12,473 nt of DNA from an uncultured Devosia sp. GTDB taxonomy: Bacteria; Pseudomonadota; Alphaproteobacteria; Rhizobiales; Devosiaceae. The notes beneath the pieces are model-generated. The model was not told the DNA's origin. It saw only the letters and a program-made list of their open reading frames with translations, and searched no databases. Position 1 is the first letter of the stretch, and every line of letters begins with the position of its first letter. This document shows, piece by piece, positions 3,497-11,414 of this stretch. The position numbers and the translations under genes are program-made. The stretch is taken from NCBI GenBank assembly GCA_946481445.1, contig CAMLOA010000018.1, forward strand, positions 1 through 12,473, read 5' to 3'.

Positions 3497-5266
3497 TCAG
3501 AACGGCCAGACCAGCATCAGCGCTGGCACGCCCACCAGCACCACCAGCAGGGACAGCGGCGCCCCCAGGCGCCAATAGTCACCGAACTTGTAGCCGCCCG
3601 GACCCATGACGAGCGTGTTGCACTGGTGCCCGATCGGCGTGAGGAAGTCGCATCCCGCGCCGATGGCCACTGCCAGCAGGAAAGCTTCGGGCCGATATCC
3701 CAGTTCGGTGGCAAACGTAGCTGCGATGGGTGCCATGACCAGCACGGTGGCCGCATTGTTGAGGAATGGCGTCACCGCCATGGCCGCCACCATGATCAGC
3801 GCCAGGGCGCCCCAGCCGGGCAGCATGCTCGCCAGTTGCGAGAGCAGCCCGGCGACCACTTCCGTGCCGCCTGTGGCCCGCAGGGAATCCGACACCGGGA
3901 TCAGGCAGGCCAGCATGATCAGGATGGGGGCGTCGAGTTGGGAATAAACGTCCCGCAGCGGGATCGAGCGGCTGAGGACCATGGCAACGGCTGCCGCGAA
4001 GAACGCAGGCGCCACCGGCACCACGCCCACTGCTGTCGCGGCCATCGCCACGAACAGGATGGCGAGCGGCACCAGCCCATTGCGCACGCTGCCCAGGCGC
4101 AGCCCGCGCTCCACCAGGGGCAGGCAATCCCATTCGCGCAGCAGTTCGGGCAGGCGCTTGAAGTGTCCCTGGATCAGGATGACGTCGCCGTTCTGGAAGC
4201 GGATCTGTCCCAGCCGTTCGGTAAAGCGCTCGTCTCGCCGGCTGATGGCGATCAGGTTGAGCCCGGTGCGGTCGAACAGCGTCAATTCCTGTGCCGTGGC
4301 CCCGATCAAACCGGAATTCTCGCCGATAACGGCCTCGATAATGCCGATATCGGCCGCATCCTTGCTGGCGGCGCCGCGGCGCTCGGAGAAGACCAGGCCC
4401 GATTGGCTCACCATCTTGTCGAGCGCTTCTGGGTCGCCGGAGATGAGCAGGATATCGCCGGCCCGCAGCCGGGCATCGGGCAGGGGGGTGCGGCTGCGCC
4501 CCGAAGCACTGACGATGCGCGTGACCATGGCCTGGCCATCCGCCCGGGCCTGCACGTCTGCCACGGTCTGCCCCACGGCGGCCGAATCCTCCACCACGCG
4601 GGCTTCGGTTGTGTAGTTCTTGATGTCGACGGCCCGGTCCAGGCCCCCCTGTTCGCGCTTGCGCTCAGGCAGCAGGCGATAGCAGATCGCCAGGAAGATG
4701 AGACCGACCACGGATAGGGCCAGCCCGACAGGGGTGTAGTCGAACATGGTGAAGGGCGTGCCGGTCAGGTCCTGCCGGACCCGGGACACGATGATATTGG
4801 GCGAGGTGCCGATCTGCGTCATCAGCCCGCCCAATAGCGAGGCAAACGACATCGGCATCAGGAACAGGGAAGGCGACACGTTCGACTTGCGCGCCATCTG
4901 GAAGGCGATGGGCATCATGATGGCCAGCGCGCCGATATTCTTGACGAAGGCACTGAGGACGCACACCACCACTGTGAGCAGGATGAGCTGGGCCCGGGGC
5001 GTCGACAGGTCCGGCGCGAAGCGGCGGATCGCCAGCTCCATGATGCCGGAGCGGGACACGGCCGCACTCACCACCAGTGCGCTGGCGACGATGATGACGA
5101 TGTCGTCCGAAAACCCGCTGAATGCGCGGTCGGGTGGCACAACGCCGAGAGCCAGGGCGGCCAGCAGGGCGCCTACCGCGACGACGTCATAGCGCCAGCG
5201 TCCCCAGACGAAGGCCACCATCATGGCGGCGATGATGACGAAGGCAAGCGTTTGCGGCAGGGTCAT
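3497..5266 (-). CDS. SLC13/DASS-family anion transporter with two RCK_C (TrkA-C) domains
   Basis: A 589-residue inner-membrane permease of the SLC13 (divalent anion:Na+ symporter-like) family. Two transporter halves (about 1-200 and 395-589) flank a soluble insert of about 200 residues holding two RCK_C/TrkA-C domains (~205-288, with GDILLISGDPEAL; ~303-376, with GDVILIQGHFKRL). Each half has the family's pseudo-repeat: VKNIGALAIMMP with IGTSPNIIVS in the first, LNNAATVLVMAP with TPIGHQCNTLV in the second. This architecture resembles E. coli YfbS and SAC1-like proteins, whose substrates (sulfate, dicarboxylates or unknown) vary, so the substrate is left open. A GTG 48 bases upstream in frame is possible, but MTLPQTLAF begins right before the first helix and is preferred. 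It is the first gene of the unit, ending two bases before the folP ATG. Confidence 0.9.
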   Translation of the reverse strand: MTLPQTLAFVIIAAMMVAFVWGRWRYDVVAVGALLAALALGVVPPDRAFSGFSDDIVIIVASALVVSAAVSRSGIMELAIRRFAPDLSTPRAQLILLTVVVCVLSAFVKNIGALAIMMPIAFQMARKSNVSPSLFLMPMSFASLLGGLMTQIGTSPNIIVSRVRQDLTGTPFTMFDYTPVGLALSVVGLIFLAICYRLLPERKREQGGLDRAVDIKNYTTEARVVEDSAAVGQTVADVQARADGQAMVTRIVSASGRSRTPLPDARLRAGDILLISGDPEALDKMVSQSGLVFSERRGAASKDAADIGIIEAVIGENSGLIGATAQELTLFDRTGLNLIAISRRDERFTERLGQIRFQNGDVILIQGHFKRLPELLREWDCLPLVERGLRLGSVRNGLVPLAILFVAMAATAVGVVPVAPAFFAAAVAMVLSRSIPLRDVYSQLDAPILIMLACLIPVSDSLRATGGTEVVAGLLSQLASMLPGWGALALIMVAAMAVTPFLNNAATVLVMAPIAATFATELGYRPEAFLLAVAIGAGCDFLTPIGHQCNTLVMGPGGYKFGDYWRLGAPLSLLVVLVGVPALMLVWPF

Positions 5267-6377: not shown

Positions 6378-7574
6378 ATGTCCAGCATTGTACCTTTCAT
6401 AAAGCGCCTCGTTCCGGGCCTGGCGCCGGTCAGCCTCGGCGAGCGCCTGCGCGCCTCCATCGGGGCGCTGATCGGCATCCTGGTGACCGGGCTCGTGGCG
6501 AGCCTGGCTCTCGGGGGCAGCTCGGACGTGCCCCTGCTGATCGCCCCGATGGGCGCATCTGCGGTGCTGCTCTTTGCGGTGCCTACCAGCCCCTTGGCGC
6601 AGCCCTGGTCGATCATTGGCGGCAATATCGTAGCCGCCCTCATCGGAGTCACCTGCGCGCGCTATGTCGGCGATGTCGTAGTTGCGGCCGCGCTGGCCAT
6701 CGGCCTCGCCATTGCCGCCATGATGGCTTTGCGCTGTCTGCACCCGCCCAGCGGTGCCGTGGCACTCACCGCCGTGCTCGGCGGGCCAGCCATTCAGGCC
6801 GCGGGCTATGGTTTCGTGCTGTGGCCGGTTGGGGTCAATTCCCTGCTGCTGCTTATCGCCGCGCTGGTGTTCAACAACCTGACTGGCCGGCGCTATCCCC
6901 ACTTGGCCCCTCCCGCGCCGGCTCATCCGCATCGCACTGCCGATCCATTGCCCAGCGCCCGGCTGGGGGTGACCAGTGCCGATATCAGCGCGGTCCTGGC
7001 ACAGTATGACCTCGTCCTGCCCATCGCGACCGATGAACTCGAGGACATCCTGCATCGCGCCGAGATTCGCGCGTTCGAGCGCCGGTCAGGCGGCATTTCC
7101 TGCGCCGATGTGATGAGCCGGGACATTCGCACGGTGACCCCGCGCACGCCGCTGCGCGAGGCCCTGCGCCACTTGCGCGAGCATCACGTCAAGGCCTTGC
7201 CCGTCGTCGACCCTGATCGTCGCGTGGTCGGAATCGTCACGCAGACCGATCTGCTCGACAAGTCCGATTGGGGCATGTCGGCGGTCGGCTCTGGACTGGG
7301 CTGGAGGCTGAGGGCGATCAGCAACTCGGATCGCTCCCTGCGCGGCGTGGTCGAGGACATCATGAGCAAGCCGGTGCGCGCCGCGCGGCCGGAGATGCTC
7401 ATCGCCCAGATCGTGCCTGCCATGGCAGACGAGGGGCTGCATCACCTGCCGGTGGTCGATGCCGATGGCAGGATTGTGGGCATGCTCACCCAATCCGACC
7501 TCGTCGCCGCCCTCTTCGCTGCTGCCGCAGGTCCGGACAGCATCGAGGGCACCCCTGGCGCCCTCGCATCCTGA
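6378..7574 (+). CDS. HPP-family integral membrane protein with C-terminal CBS pair
   Basis: A 398-residue inner-membrane protein. The N-terminal ~170 residues form an HPP domain with hydrophobic segments near 26-47, 51-69, 77-95, 99-118 and 140-165; the family-naming H122-P123-P124 sits in LHPPSGAVALTAVLGG, and PMGASAVLLFAVP plus SPLAQPW precede it. After a Pro/His-rich linker (~174-193) come two CBS motifs (~243-295, VMSRDIRTVTP to GIVTQTDLL; ~325-383, DIMSKPVRAARP to GMLTQSDLV), which usually form one adenine-nucleotide-sensing module. HPP proteins of cyanobacteria and chloroplasts have been linked to nitrite transport; the role of the HPP-CBS form is not established. The Shine-Dalgarno is weak. 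The CBS pair suggests gating by ATP/AMP or a cyclic nucleotide. No obvious terminator follows. Confidence 0.9.
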   Translation: MSSIVPFIKRLVPGLAPVSLGERLRASIGALIGILVTGLVASLALGGSSDVPLLIAPMGASAVLLFAVPTSPLAQPWSIIGGNIVAALIGVTCARYVGDVVVAAALAIGLAIAAMMALRCLHPPSGAVALTAVLGGPAIQAAGYGFVLWPVGVNSLLLLIAALVFNNLTGRRYPHLAPPAPAHPHRTADPLPSARLGVTSADISAVLAQYDLVLPIATDELEDILHRAEIRAFERRSGGISCADVMSRDIRTVTPRTPLREALRHLREHHVKALPVVDPDRRVVGIVTQTDLLDKSDWGMSAVGSGLGWRLRAISNSDRSLRGVVEDIMSKPVRAARPEMLIAQIVPAMADEGLHHLPVVDADGRIVGMLTQSDLVAALFAAAAGPDSIEGTPGALAS

Positions 7575-7603: not shown

Positions 7604-7628
7604 ACGCCTGCGCACATAGAACAGGCGT
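7604..7628. repeat. Inverted repeat ACGCCTG-N11-CAGGCGT in the HPP-CBS/fecR gap
   Basis: Two perfect 7-base arms (7604-7610 and 7622-7628) around an 11-base centre, 30 bases after the HPP-CBS stop. There is no T-run behind it, so it is a poor intrinsic terminator. It might be an operator or a 3'-end mRNA hairpin. Confidence 0.35.
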
Positions 7629-7673
7629 TCGATGACATTGACCCCCAGCCGTGATGCATTGGCCGCCGGCTGC

Positions 7674-7687
7674 GTGCCCTGGGGAAC
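7674..7687. promoter_or_regulatory. Operator candidate, GTGCCC-TG-GGGAAC, upstream of fecR
   Basis: A 14-base near-palindrome ending 50 bases before the fecR ATG in non-coding DNA. It matches the perfect palindrome at 10973-10986 at 13 of 14 positions; the single difference (G for T at 7676) breaks one pair of the left arm. Read as 5-N4-5 it has the geometry of FNR/Crp-family sites. The adjacent Crp/Fnr gene is the obvious candidate binder. Confidence 0.55.
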
Positions 7688-7727
7688 AGTCCTTGTCCCT
7701 CCGGCATGCTAGCCTGCGTCAACTGAT

Positions 7728-7732
7728 GGAGG
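7728..7732 (+). promoter_or_regulatory. Ribosome-binding site of fecR-like gene
   Basis: GGAGG lies five bases before the ATG at 7738. It favours this start over the in-frame ATG at 7726 (which overlaps the site) and one at 7651 (which would put 29 unrelated residues ahead of a twin-arginine signal). Confidence 0.75.
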
Positions 7733-7737
7733 CAGGC

Positions 7738-8364
7738 ATGCATGTGCCAAAGGCGAAGACAAGCCGACGACAGCTGCTGTTGGGATCGATGGCTCTCGGC
7801 CTATGCGGGGCCGTGCGTCCGGCCCTGGCGAATAGCCCGGTGGGCTCGGCCATGATGGTTGAAGGCGAGGTGTCCCTGCGCCGCGGCAGCCTGGAGGCCG
7901 CGCTTCAGGTCGGCGACGCCATCAACCTTCATGACTTCGTGGTCACGCGCAAAGATGGGCTGGCTCTGCTCATGCTCGAGCGCGACATGCGCATCAACCT
8001 CGGCGGCGAGACGGAGTTTGCCGTGGACGAGTTTGTCGTCGGCCAGTCGGGGACCATCCAGCTCGGCGGCGCCATGGTGTTTGATCGTCCCGAAGGCCTG
8101 CCACCCGTCGATCTTGTGATCCAGACCGCCTTCGCGCAGATCGGGGTGCGCGGCACGCGCTTCTTCGCCGGGCCGAGCCAGGGGCGTCTTGCGGTTTTCG
8201 TCGACCGCGGCACCGTTTCGGTGGCGGCTGCGGGGACGGAGCGCGTGCTTGGCCCAGGAGATGGCGTCGATTTCGCCAATCCCGGCGATCCGCCGGGGGA
8301 TGTGGTGCAGTGGAGCGCGCCGCGCATCGCGGAGGCCTTCGCCAGCCTCGGCCTTGTGCGTTAG
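7738..8364 (+). CDS. FecR-domain periplasmic protein with Tat-type signal peptide
   Basis: A 208-residue exported protein. The N-terminus carries a twin-arginine motif (S9-R10-R11-Q-L-L-L), a hydrophobic core and an AxA cleavage site after A31 (PALA/NS), so it is predicted to reach the periplasm folded, via Tat. Residues ~35-175 form a FecR beta domain: GEVSLRRG, the GDAINLHDFVVT segment, and the hallmark QIGVRGTRFFAG (134-145). Classical FecR is an anti-sigma factor anchored in the membrane with an N-terminal cytoplasmic part; this one has neither, so it cannot bind a sigma factor directly and is more likely a sensor or ligand partner. It converges on the CHASE2-cyclase gene, sharing four bases (TTAG) at the stops, and has an operator-like palindrome upstream. 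Serving as input to the CHASE2 domain is inference from context. Confidence 0.87.
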   Translation: MHVPKAKTSRRQLLLGSMALGLCGAVRPALANSPVGSAMMVEGEVSLRRGSLEAALQVGDAINLHDFVVTRKDGLALLMLERDMRINLGGETEFAVDEFVVGQSGTIQLGGAMVFDRPEGLPPVDLVIQTAFAQIGVRGTRFFAGPSQGRLAVFVDRGTVSVAAAGTERVLGPGDGVDFANPGDPPGDVVQWSAPRIAEAFASLGLVR

Positions 8365-10211
8365 CGGCGGGGTGTGAACACCTCGGTCTCGCCGAAGCCC
8401 CGTATTTCGATCCTGCCGAGTGACCGGATGGGCAGTCGTGCCCCGGCAGCCGCGTCGGGGCCGATGCAGATCGTGCTGCCCAACTGCTTGTTGGCCTCCT
8501 CGAGCCGCGCCGCCATGTTTACGGCATCGCCATAGGCGGTGTAGTCGATCTTTCCCGCGGCACCGATATCGCCCAGGATGACCTGGCCGGTTTCGATGCC
8601 GATGCGGGTGCGGCCCAGGCCGAGCGCGGCATATTCGGGCTTTTCCCGGAACGCCTCGGAGAACGCTTCCATCTCCAGCGCGCAGCGGAGAGCGGCGTCG
8701 ACATGGTCCGGCACATCGGCGGGCGCATTGAAGAAGGCGTGAATGGCATCGCCGACGAACTTGTCGATCATGCCGCCATGCTTCAGCACGATGGCGGTCA
8801 TCCCTGAGAAATAGTCATCGAGGACCCCAACGAAAGTGCGTGGGTCCAGGCCCCTGGTAGAGCCCGTGAACCCTTCGAGGTCCGTGAAGAGGGCCGTGAC
8901 CACCCGCTCTTCGCCTTCCAGCCGGAACAGGCCCGGATTACGCACGAAACGGGCCACCACATCGGCCGGCAGCAGCTGGCTGATGCGTCGTCGCAGCGAC
9001 GCCTCTGCCCGCCTGAGCCTGGCGGCATGGGTGACGAGCGCCAGGCTACCCGCCAGCACCATGGCCAGCGGCGGCAATACGGGGTCGAGCAGCAGCGCGC
9101 CGGCCAGGCTCAGGGCCAGGGCCCCGCCGATCCAGGCGAGGGCCGTCAGCCCGATCGCCAGTGCGGCCAGGGCAGGGGCCAGCAGGGCGGAAGCCATGGC
9201 CAGCGCAATGCCGCCCGCTATGGCGGCAGCGGGCTCGATAAGACCGGCATTGGCGATGCGCTCCGGCAAGCGGCCCGACAGAACGCCGGCGGCGACGTCG
9301 GCATGAATTTGCACCGATGGGTGCAAGGGGCTGCTGGTGGTCGGGCGCAAGGCCCCGCTGCGGGGGGAGGAACTGCCCACAAGGACGAGCTTTCCCGACA
9401 GCGCCGTCGCAGCCTGCCCCTCCAGGACTTGGGTAGCGGTCACTGTCCTGTCCATCCAGTCCGCGGGCGTGGTAGGCCGGTAGCGGACCTGCCCGTCCGG
9501 GCCGATCCCAAAGCGGGTGGTTCCAAGGCGCAGCCAGGCCGGATCACCCCCAAGCATGGGCGACGGCGCCTGCAGCGCCACGCGGACTGCGTCGAAGGCC
9601 AGCCCCAGATAGGGGGTTCCCATGACGGCTGCGATGGCGGGCACCTCGCGCACGAGGCCGCCGTCACTGCCGGCCAGCGAAATCACCGCCGCGCTGGCCG
9701 CCACGTCCTGGAATTGCTGGCAGGCCGGTTCGGTGCCGTCGGCGTACCAGATCAGCGGCACCGACAGGTCGTTCATCACCGCAATGGCGGGTTGCGGGAT
9801 AGGCAGCCCGCCGCCCGAGCCGGCGAGGAGGAAGCCAAGGACGGTCGGGACCGTGCCGATCGCGGCCGCGACTTGGCCGTTCGTGTCGTTCACGTCGCAC
9901 GTCGCCGACAGCACGATGTCCAGCGCCATGACCCGTGGCCCCTGCTGTGCGATCTCGGTCAGCAACCGGGCGGTGTCTGCGCGGGACCATGCCTGCCCGT
10001 CCTGGTTCAGGTCCGGAATGTCCACGACCACGATGTCGCCATCGAGCGGCGCGGGCGCCGCCTGCAGCAGCAGGTCGAAACCCTGTTCGCGCCAGCCTTC
10101 GAGCATGTCGGGCGGGTTGGCGGCCAGCAGCGCGCCGATAACCGCAATGCCGCCGCCAACGGCCACCGGGGCCAGTGCCATGCGCAGGCTGGCCACGACC
10201 GACCGCATCAT
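8361..10211 (-). CDS. CHASE2-domain class III adenylate cyclase, membrane-bound
   Basis: A 616-residue transmembrane cyclase predicted to make cAMP in response to an extracytoplasmic signal. Order: helix ~12-31; periplasmic CHASE2 domain ~35-315 (DGDIVVVDIPDLNQ, RVMALDIVLS, VQIHADVAAGVLSG); three helices ~322-345, 347-375 and 378-396; a short Arg-rich linker; catalytic domain ~430-600. All class III residues are present: metal-binding D444 (LFTDLEGFT) and D488 (FVGDAI), purine-specifying K484 and D556 (KIDYT), and transition-state N565 and R569 (VNMAARLE). The Lys/Asp pair marks adenylate rather than guanylate specificity. The ATG overlaps the stop of the upstream Crp/Fnr gene (ATGA), so both come from one transcript. 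Its stop overlaps that of the convergent fecR-like gene. Unknown: what the CHASE2 domain senses. Confidence 0.94.
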   Translation of the reverse strand: MMRSVVASLRMALAPVAVGGGIAVIGALLAANPPDMLEGWREQGFDLLLQAAPAPLDGDIVVVDIPDLNQDGQAWSRADTARLLTEIAQQGPRVMALDIVLSATCDVNDTNGQVAAAIGTVPTVLGFLLAGSGGGLPIPQPAIAVMNDLSVPLIWYADGTEPACQQFQDVAASAAVISLAGSDGGLVREVPAIAAVMGTPYLGLAFDAVRVALQAPSPMLGGDPAWLRLGTTRFGIGPDGQVRYRPTTPADWMDRTVTATQVLEGQAATALSGKLVLVGSSSPRSGALRPTTSSPLHPSVQIHADVAAGVLSGRLPERIANAGLIEPAAAIAGGIALAMASALLAPALAALAIGLTALAWIGGALALSLAGALLLDPVLPPLAMVLAGSLALVTHAARLRRAEASLRRRISQLLPADVVARFVRNPGLFRLEGEERVVTALFTDLEGFTGSTRGLDPRTFVGVLDDYFSGMTAIVLKHGGMIDKFVGDAIHAFFNAPADVPDHVDAALRCALEMEAFSEAFREKPEYAALGLGRTRIGIETGQVILGDIGAAGKIDYTAYGDAVNMAARLEEANKQLGSTICIGPDAAAGARLPIRSLGRIEIRGFGETEVFTPRR

Positions 10212-10903
10212 TTGCTATCGATTTCCGAGATCTGCGCCAGGATATTCGTGTTGCAGCTGAGCACGGATCCGTCGCGCGTGATCGCGCCCTGCTCCTCGAG
10301 CGACAGGATGGCCCGATTCACTTTTGGCCGGCTGGCGCCGAGCATGGCGGCGATCTCGCCCTGGCTGAGGTCGAGCCGCAGGCGGGCCTCCTCGGGTGGT
10401 TCCTCGCCATAGCTTTGCCTGAGTGCCAGCAGCAGGAAGCGCGCCACGCGCGCCTCCAGTTCGAACAGGGCGATGGATTCGAGCTGGTCTGTCGTCTCGC
10501 GCAGCCGCCGGCTCAGATAGGCGATAAGGCCGGTGCGCAGTTCTGAGAAGGATGCCAGCAGTCGGGTGAAATCGTCCTTCAGGATCACCCGCCCGGTGGT
10601 GGCAATCGCCGCAGTGGCGTCGGCGGAGCGCGGCTCGCCATCGAGCAGTGCCATTTCGCCCAGGATTTCGCCCGGTCCGGCCTGCCGCAGGGTCAGCTCG
10701 CGCCCGCCCTGCGTGATCAGCGACAGTTTCACCCGGCCGTCTATGACCGCCACGACGTGATCACCGGCATCGCCGCGCTGGAACATGACCTCGCCGGCGT
10801 TCCAGCGTCGAAGCTGCGCCACGCGGTCCAGCTCCGCTATGGCCGCGTTGTCGAAATACTCAAAGATAGGAAACGAGCGCCAGAAGGCGGCTCCGCTTTG
10901 CAT
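10208..10903 (-). CDS. Crp/Fnr-family transcriptional regulator, probably cAMP-responsive
   Basis: A 231-residue regulator with an N-terminal cyclic-nucleotide-binding domain (~8-120), dimerisation helix (~121-160) and winged helix-turn-helix (~180-209, LSQGEIAAMLGASRPKVNRA). Residues that bind cAMP in E. coli CRP are kept: E83 in GEMALLDG, R92-S93 in EPRSADA, and T137-T138 for CRP T127-S128 in the RRLRETTDQL helix. No FNR-type N-terminal cysteine cluster is seen. In the recognition helix SRPKVNR keeps both Arg of CRP's SRETVGR but replaces Glu181 with Pro, so the DNA site may differ from TGTGA. The frame is open to 11011, but ATG 10903 has GGGAG eight bases upstream, gives the normal length, and leaves the palindrome at 10973-10986 outside the gene. 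First gene of the crp-cyclase operon. Confidence 0.92.
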   Translation of the reverse strand: MQSGAAFWRSFPIFEYFDNAAIAELDRVAQLRRWNAGEVMFQRGDAGDHVVAVIDGRVKLSLITQGGRELTLRQAGPGEILGEMALLDGEPRSADATAAIATTGRVILKDDFTRLLASFSELRTGLIAYLSRRLRETTDQLESIALFELEARVARFLLLALRQSYGEEPPEEARLRLDLSQGEIAAMLGASRPKVNRAILSLEEQGAITRDGSVLSCNTNILAQISEIDSK

Positions 10904-10911
10904 CCGGCGAT

Positions 10912-10916
10912 CTCCC
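10912..10916 (-). promoter_or_regulatory. Ribosome-binding site of the Crp/Fnr gene
   Basis: GGGAG on the minus strand, eight bases before ATG 10903. It decides the start over the in-frame ATG at 10927 and the first possible codon at 11011, neither of which has a comparable signal. Confidence 0.65.
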
Positions 10917-10972
10917 GCTCGATCCATATCCGTTCGGCAGTGTGGCGAAATCTTCGTCCTGGGCAAGCCCCT

Positions 10973-10986
10973 GTTCCCTGGGGAAC
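10973..10986. promoter_or_regulatory. Perfect palindromic operator candidate GTTCCC-TG-GGGAAC between crp and SH3 genes
   Basis: Six-base perfect arms around TG, extendable to eight-base arms with one mismatch (10971-10988). It lies 69 bases before the crp ATG and 81 bases before the SH3 ATG, in the shared divergent promoter region. A 13/14 copy occurs before fecR at 7674-7687. As 5-N4-5 it has FNR/Crp-site geometry. Autoregulation by the adjacent Crp/Fnr protein is the simplest reading. Confidence 0.6.
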
Positions 10987-11021
10987 TGCCGATGTCCGGT
11001 CCGTCCGCCATTGTCGGGTCA

Positions 11022-11067: not shown

Positions 11068-11370
11068 ATGTTCAAGAAAGCTCTTATCGCCACCGCCCTG
11101 GTTCTTGCCACCGCCTCCACCTCCATGGCCGCAACCTACGGCTGGACGACCGCCGGCGTGAACTTCCGCGACGGTCCGGGCACCAGCTACTACAAGCTGG
11201 GCACCATTGCCGCCTGCACCAAGGTCAGCATCGATGACGACCAGAATGGCTGGTACAAGGTGAGCTGGTCCGGCCAGTGGGGCTGGGTCGCGTCGAGCTA
11301 CGTGTCCTACGACGCCGACTACTGCGCCAGCTACCAGGCGCCGGCCCATACCGGCTACAAGAAGTACTGA
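11068..11370 (+). CDS. Small secreted SH3-domain (SH3b) protein
   Basis: A 100-residue protein with a clear Sec signal peptide (MFKKALIATALVLATASTSMA, cleavage near A21/A22) and a single bacterial SH3 domain filling the mature part: VNFRDGPGTSYYKLGTI (31-47), then GWYKVSW (61-67) and GQWGWVASSYVS (69-80), the classic order. Bacterial SH3 domains often bind cell-wall peptides or act as targeting modules. A Tyr/Lys-rich tail follows. C50 and C86 could form a disulfide in the periplasm. Start: MFKK has AAAAGGA upstream; the longer frame from 10942 would put 42 non-conserved residues ahead of the signal peptide. It is divergent from crp, with a palindrome and a leader stem-loop in between, and followed by a GC-rich hairpin. 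Envelope role likely; exact function unknown. Confidence 0.88.
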   Translation: MFKKALIATALVLATASTSMAATYGWTTAGVNFRDGPGTSYYKLGTIAACTKVSIDDDQNGWYKVSWSGQWGWVASSYVSYDADYCASYQAPAHTGYKKY

Positions 11371-11390: not shown

Positions 11391-11414
11391 GCGCCCCGGT
11401 CACCACCGGGGCGC
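11391..11414 (+). terminator. GC-rich hairpin after the SH3 gene, probable terminator without T-run
   Basis: A perfect ten-base-pair stem, GCGCCCCGGT/ACCGGGGCGC, with the four-base loop CACC, starting 20 bases after the SH3 stop. The following bases (TGCCACATCC) are not a T-run, so termination may be weak or Rho-assisted; it may instead protect the mRNA 3' end. Confidence 0.6.

Follow-up and report, generated by a model that had tools for sequence, protein, structure and literature searches.

Two palindromes in an uncultured Devosia sp. look like sites for the Clr-type cAMP-sensing activator encoded between them

The window, a 12,473-nt stretch of DNA from an uncultured Devosia sp., carries genes for a FecR-domain protein, a CHASE2 cyclase, a Crp-type regulator and a small SH3-domain protein. 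Their coordinates and those of the associated sequence elements are as follows:

7616–7633, no strand assigned: near copy (one mismatch) of ATCGAAC-N4-GTTCGAT, a palindrome found near fecR in several relatives
7674–7687, plus strand: site 1, Clr-box-like GTGCCCTGGGGAAC, upstream of fecR
7710–7715, plus strand: TAGCCT, putative −10 hexamer of the fecR promoter; spacing from site 1 exactly 22 nt
7738–8364, plus strand: fecR, FecR-domain protein, a relative of the gene in the SMc02177 position of locus L153; GGAGG precedes the ATG
8361–10211, minus strand: CHASE2 adenylate/guanylate cyclase; its position and Pfam domains are CyaD1-like
10208–10903, minus strand: crp, Clr-like cyclic-nucleotide receptor, named for its relatedness to Clr
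10973–10986, no strand assigned: site 2, Clr-box-like palindrome GTTCCCTGGGGAAC, between crp and the SH3 gene
11009–11014, plus strand: CATTGT, putative −10 hexamer of the SH3 promoter; spacing from site 2 exactly 22 nt
11069–11370, plus strand: small SH3-domain protein (PF08239), proposed Clr target

The crp and cyclase genes are both on the minus strand and overlap by 4 bases, with fecR convergent on them. The crp start at 10903 agrees with that of a 231-aa relative (P0001), and for fecR an in-frame ATG at 7726 is a possible alternative start. By eye, the N-terminus of the SH3 protein resembles a signal peptide. Among named proteins, those closest to Crp come from Devosia, and several of the closest matches of both Crp and FecR are metagenome or JGI sequences. 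Among 136 genomes of one family, taken as Devosiaceae, the same seven contained the cyclase (E ≤ 1e-130) and Crp (E ≤ 1e-50), and the pair therefore travels together; we refer to these seven genomes as clr+ and to the other 129 as clr−. A contig scan with the cyclase recovered 13 loci, mostly distant, and a search for Clr at E ≤ 1e-60, run without a positive control, found no match in 15 genomes of the family of G237. On its other side, fecR is adjoined in the window by an HPP/CBS-domain gene (6378–7574); at this position four of the seven Devosiaceae relatives carry an SH3-like gene (L051, 10463–10630; L052, 9314–9535; L054, 6242–6451; L055, 6532–6780, the last at E 0.005).

The initial annotation had reported GTTCCCTGGGGAAC at 10973–10986 and GTGCCCTGGGGAAC at 7674–7687, and both were found at these coordinates. 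The two sites are identical at 13 of 14 positions, exactly 50 bases separate the end of site 1 from the fecR ATG (7738), and the window holds no other near copy, these being its only matches at up to two mismatches to GTTCCCTGGGGAAC, all as that annotation had stated. Of 5000 windows simulated with a first-order Markov model, 22 contained at least one match to GTTCCCTGGGGAAC with at most one mismatch, and on this count we rejected a chance origin of the matching pair. Perfect 6-N2-6 palindromes are ordinary here (5 in the window vs 6.6 expected), and the looser pattern GTKCCCNNGGGAAC with two mismatches gave seven window matches, extending to three other places, vs 2.9 expected. With the starts of fecR, crp and the SH3 gene taken as 7738, 10903 and 11069, respectively, both sites are intergenic; longer, mechanically called open reading frames run across site 1 (from GTG 7651) and across site 2 (among others from 11011 on the minus strand and 10942 on the plus strand).

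Alignment of the window Crp with Clr of Sinorhizobium meliloti gave 126 identical residues of 231 (55%). The Clr residues that contact the cyclic nucleotide, listed in PMC10127613 as G85, E86, R95, S96, T140 and T141, are all kept, as are G47 and D48, making eight of the eight residues checked. A helix-turn-helix segment, GASRPKVNRAIL, taken to be the recognition helix, is identical in the two proteins, and the nearest solved structure is S. meliloti Clr itself (7pza, E 1.7e-77; the next at 1.4e-26). In S. meliloti, clr is SMc02175, cyaD1 is SMc02176 and SMc02177 has a FecR domain (PMC5498481), and CyaD1, CyaD2 and CyaK are CHASE2 cyclases (PMC13001267).

For S. meliloti, PMC10127613 gives the Clr-box core as GTNNCNNNNGNNAC, and PMC5498481 gives TGTTN8AACA for the smc02178 box and HGTYHCNNNNGRWACA as the relaxed Clr-box consensus. 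The core is matched by both sites, and with four matches in the window it is uninformative by itself. Site 2 with its flanks, read on the minus strand, also matches the stricter HGTYHCNNNNGRWACA, from which site 1 departs by a single mismatch, a G that breaks the Y of HGTYHC. A matrix trained solely on 23 boxes of the Sinorhizobium family placed site 2 first by far in the window, at 22.0 bits, a score reached in none of 300 simulated windows. An unrelated stretch at 11414 outscored site 1, which came third at 9.2 bits; simulated windows reach such a score 0.35 times each on average, in 88 of the 300, and site 1 is for that reason weak when taken alone. The suggestion that a Crp/Fnr-type dimer encoded between the sites would fit them is supported by a regulator that is a relative of Clr and by sites that match the Clr-box core, and both palindromes look like sites for a cAMP-sensing activator encoded between them.

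Conservation of the two sites was then read in relatives. The site 2 palindrome lies upstream of crp in all seven clr+ Devosiaceae relatives (with GTCCC in L029/L064), and the divergent gene has a Pfam SH3 domain in the six tested; in the seventh, G419, the divergent frame is alike by eye. Within Rhodobacterales, an order inferred from named loci, a crp-side box was present in three of the eight clr relatives (G002, G003 and G774) and was not found in the other five (G001, G537, G592, G691 and G706). In L016, and in the more distant L004, L018–L022, L024 and L025, the 300 bp examined did not show the palindrome either. Site 1 has one clear counterpart before fecR among the seven Devosiaceae relatives, in L056. 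Conservation in orthologous promoters, put forward as a check, therefore holds for site 2 and mostly fails for site 1.

Eleven loci with a crp-side box (the window, seven Devosiaceae and three Rhodobacterales) were aligned on the box. A −10-like YANNNT occurs exactly 22 nt beyond it on the side away from crp, the SH3 side in the window, in 11/11 loci, and on that side at no other offset from 5 to 44 in any of them (2/11 at 45, 1/11 at 48). If this hexamer is a −10 element, the box centre lies at −41.5, the geometry of a class II Crp promoter. The same distance separates site 1 from TAGCCT on the fecR side, followed by GGAGG and the ATG, and CTTGTC just past site 1 resembles the CTTGCC that flanks site 2. 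Transcription would accordingly be predicted to start at about 11021 for the SH3 gene and about 7722 for fecR. Most Clr-activated promoters carry the box at −42 to −76 from the start site (PMC10127613); those figures come from mapped starts, and the −41.5 set beside them is derived from the YANNNT 22 nt away.

For the family of Sinorhizobium, taken as Rhizobiaceae, we read 24 clr loci (L153–L156 and L159–L178), 24 of the 40 genomes found among 346. A core-matching box lies within 350 bp of fecR in 23 of them, L172 being the locus with no box in that range. YANNNT stands 22 nt from the box, on the side away from fecR, in 16 of the 24 loci; of the seven of 23 boxes that have none at 22 nt, four (L168, L173, L174 and L178) have it at 21 nt by reading. 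In L153 and L154, where Clr shares 99% identity with the S. meliloti protein, the gap beyond fecR holds a single core match. It reads TGTT-N8-AACA, as does the validated smc02178 box, and 22 nt past it, toward the gene in the smc02178 position, stands TAGAAT or TAGGAT.

We consider it highly probable that the palindromes are Clr boxes, with class II activation of the SH3 gene through site 2 and probably the same for fecR through site 1. In the proposed mechanism, the membrane CHASE2 cyclase would make cAMP (or cGMP), and the nucleotide-bound Clr-like dimer would bind the box at 10973–10986, its centre some 41.5 bp ahead of the start site, and switch on the SH3 gene by class II activation; the second copy (7674–7687) would probably play this part for fecR. 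Beside the observed sequence match, the relatedness to Clr and the conserved site 2 with its conserved 22-nt spacing, we infer that the protein binds, that binding depends on the nucleotide, where transcription starts, and that the genes are activated and not repressed. The comparisons support the idea of a putative Crp operator, and the regulatory element reported in the initial annotation is real, its binder very likely having been identified correctly.

Site 2 lies between divergent genes, and it might instead mainly govern the crp-cyclase operon, positively or negatively, as Clr autoregulation, with the SH3 gene incidental. A CTTGC string on the crp side of the box in 8/11 loci (counted by reading) speaks for this, since CTTGCC could be a −35 and the Gemmobacter loci, in which the divergent gene is unrelated to SH3, are included. 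Against it, YANNNT has no fixed offset toward crp, occurring in at most 3/11 of the box-bearing loci at any single offset, compared with 11/11 on the far side, and a GTTYC-N4-GRAAC box within 350 bp before crp was found in 0/24 Sinorhizobium-family loci, L165 having one weaker core match there. On balance we hold autoregulation to be rather unlikely. The same asymmetry bears on the earlier picture of four genes tied into one regulon by a shared operator: the SH3 gene retains its place through site 2, fecR does so more weakly through site 1, and crp-cyclase would be a less certain member, the fixed-spacing −10-like element lying solely on the side away from crp.

Site 2 could also be the only real Clr box, serving the SH3 gene, with site 1 a chance near copy and no operator shared with fecR. 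Its third rank in the matrix scan fits this, as does the record in Devosiaceae, where the one clear counterpart, the L056 box GTTCCTTGCGTCAC, is followed at 22 nt by CATTGG, which is not a YANNNT, and where the core match of L057 is about 166 bp upstream of fecR. A chance copy has to be set against the 13/14 identity to site 2, equalled or bettered in only the 22 simulated windows given above, against TAGCCT at exactly 22 nt and CTTGTC beyond the box, and against the box before fecR in 23/24 Sinorhizobium-family loci. In addition, smc02177 is reported in PMC5498481 as Clr-activated outside the plant, its nodule expression being essentially Clr-independent. Three things favour site 1 as a Clr box: how closely it resembles site 2, the spacing and the Sinorhizobium-family fecR boxes. 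We judge a chance origin of this site unlikely.

In alphaproteobacterial EcfG promoters, GGAAC forms the −35 element and CGTT follows 16–17 nt downstream; that the GGGAAC strings are −35 elements of such an ECF-type sigma factor, set back to back by chance, is suggested by the resemblance and by the position of site 2 between divergent genes, and we rejected it as highly improbable, since direct reading found no GGAAC-N16/17-CGTT at either site, both arms of site 2 are conserved and what stands at a fixed distance is YANNNT, 22 nt away.

The second palindrome near fecR, ATCGAAC-N4-GTTCGAT, occurs in the relatives at L051 10301, L052 5438 and 9196, L054 6566, L055 6406, and L057 7082 and 10923, and has YANNNT 22 nt away on one side at four of these seven sites. 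It was present in 26 of the 136 Devosiaceae genomes, with no reversed-control matches; 20 of the 26 are clr−. It is thus not tied to clr, and we therefore rejected it as a Clr box.

Genome-wide enrichment of the palindrome had been proposed as a further check, and it was not observed. In ten clr-bearing genomes the bare palindrome GTTCCNNNNGGAAC occurred 3–16 times per genome compared with 10–21 for the reversed control, falling below the control in nine and exceeding it only in G001 (16 to 12). A genome-wide regulon defined by the bare palindrome was rejected, there being no excess over the control in 9/10 genomes. The pattern GTTNCNNNNGNAAC-N22-YANNNT gave 31 matches in the seven clr+ and 25 in 13 clr− Devosiaceae genomes, with controls of 21 and 31, respectively, parS-like matches being counted in. 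GTTTCACGTGAAAC, a recurrent sequence among the pattern matches that we take to be parS-like, was counted apart. After many clr+ matches were seen to continue AACWG, the motif was refined to GTTYCNNNNGRAACWG, and across the 136 genomes the composite GTTYCNNNNGRAACWG-N20-YANNNT matched 19 times in 7/7 clr+ genomes and 14 times in 13 of the 129 clr− genomes (controls 2 and 10; four of the 14 clr− matches parS-like). At the time of refinement, 116 of the 129 clr− genomes were unseen. The concentration of the composite motif in clr+ genomes is suggestive, and as a post hoc contrast it is no clean test, because the motif was refined after the fact.

Six of the 19 clr+ composite matches are the crp/SH3 site, and for some of the remaining 13, related genes lie downstream in different genomes. 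In G415 and G468 the gene after the box encodes a protein of about 250 aa whose start is signal-like (56% identical between the two); in G419 a relative is preceded by a box-like site that has CAAAAG at 22 nt. G415 and G453 share another protein of similar size downstream of the box (57% identical to each other, about 33% to the first), and G453 and G468 a membrane-like protein of 114–116 aa (67% identical). Some clr+ matches, for example both further ones in G186, fall in long open frames with no matched neighbour. In clr+ genomes, box-like sites of L091, L148, L150, L151 and L052 (near 5383) are followed by proteins of about 250 aa that fall into two related families; in each family the one member tested gave no Pfam match. 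In L051 (near 13500) and L052 (near 12200), box-like pairs have a Sel1-repeat protein of about 300 aa on one side and a divergent protein of about 370–380 aa on the other, the latter with a LuxR-type GerE domain in L052 (E 1.3e-5) and no Pfam match in L051. The first of these proteins in L051, of 304 aa, has Sel1 repeats at E 2.2e-19 and is weakly similar to the SMc02178-position protein of L155; the L052 one is 52% identical to it.

The class II promoters of Escherichia coli CRP place the box at about −41.5, and the CRP half-site is TGTGA. The window resembles them in the inferred box centre and differs in having GTTCC as the half-site and in its regulator, which scores 69 bits against a cut-off of 266 for the NCBIfam CRP equivalog. 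Likeness to the S. meliloti Clr system is closer: the regulator is 55% identical with its contact residues kept, a CHASE2 cyclase lies beside it and fecR is convergent, in an order clr-cyclase-fecR that equals SMc02175–SMc02177 as these are consecutively numbered in PMC5498481. The box core is shared, as is the 22-nt distance from box to hexamer seen in L153 and L154. In those two loci the box occupies the interval separating fecR from the smc02178-position gene, with none seen within 350 bp before clr, whereas the window has a strong box between clr and the SH3 gene and a weaker one before fecR; no smc02178-like gene was recognised in the window.

The neighbour on the box side also differs between lineages. 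Devosiaceae have the SH3 protein there. The Sinorhizobium family has a small protein in the SMc02178 position, with a Sel1 repeat in L155 (E 7e-9); the L153 version matches that of L155 (38% over 132 residues, E 3.6e-25) and has no Pfam match of its own. In L157 and L158, loci of the Gemmobacter type, the neighbour is an RTX calcium-binding-repeat protein of about 600 aa (E 1.2e-86 and 1.1e-79), toward which the Clr-box promoter (near 5210 and 7135, respectively) is directed. We give an even chance to a reading in which clr-cyclase-fecR is an old alphaproteobacterial envelope-sensing module, coupled through the Clr box to an exchangeable secreted output: SMc02178-type, partly Sel1-repeat, in the Sinorhizobium family, SH3 in Devosiaceae and RTX in the Gemmobacter type. 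If so, the circuit that limits legume infection would be one application of a broader, non-symbiotic signalling module, the sensor-regulator core staying constant while the regulated secreted protein is swapped between lineages, and such comparison offers a way to approach the roles of the outputs. A literature search (Devosia, Clr, adenylate cyclase, CHASE2) returned no paper naming Devosia with a Clr circuit. The present analysis locates in Devosiaceae and Gemmobacter-like bacteria a circuit that has been studied for how it controls root infection in legumes, and offers an exact promoter rule, box, 22 nt, YANNNT. At this locus it looks like the Clr-type switch already known from Sinorhizobium, here aimed at a different secreted protein.
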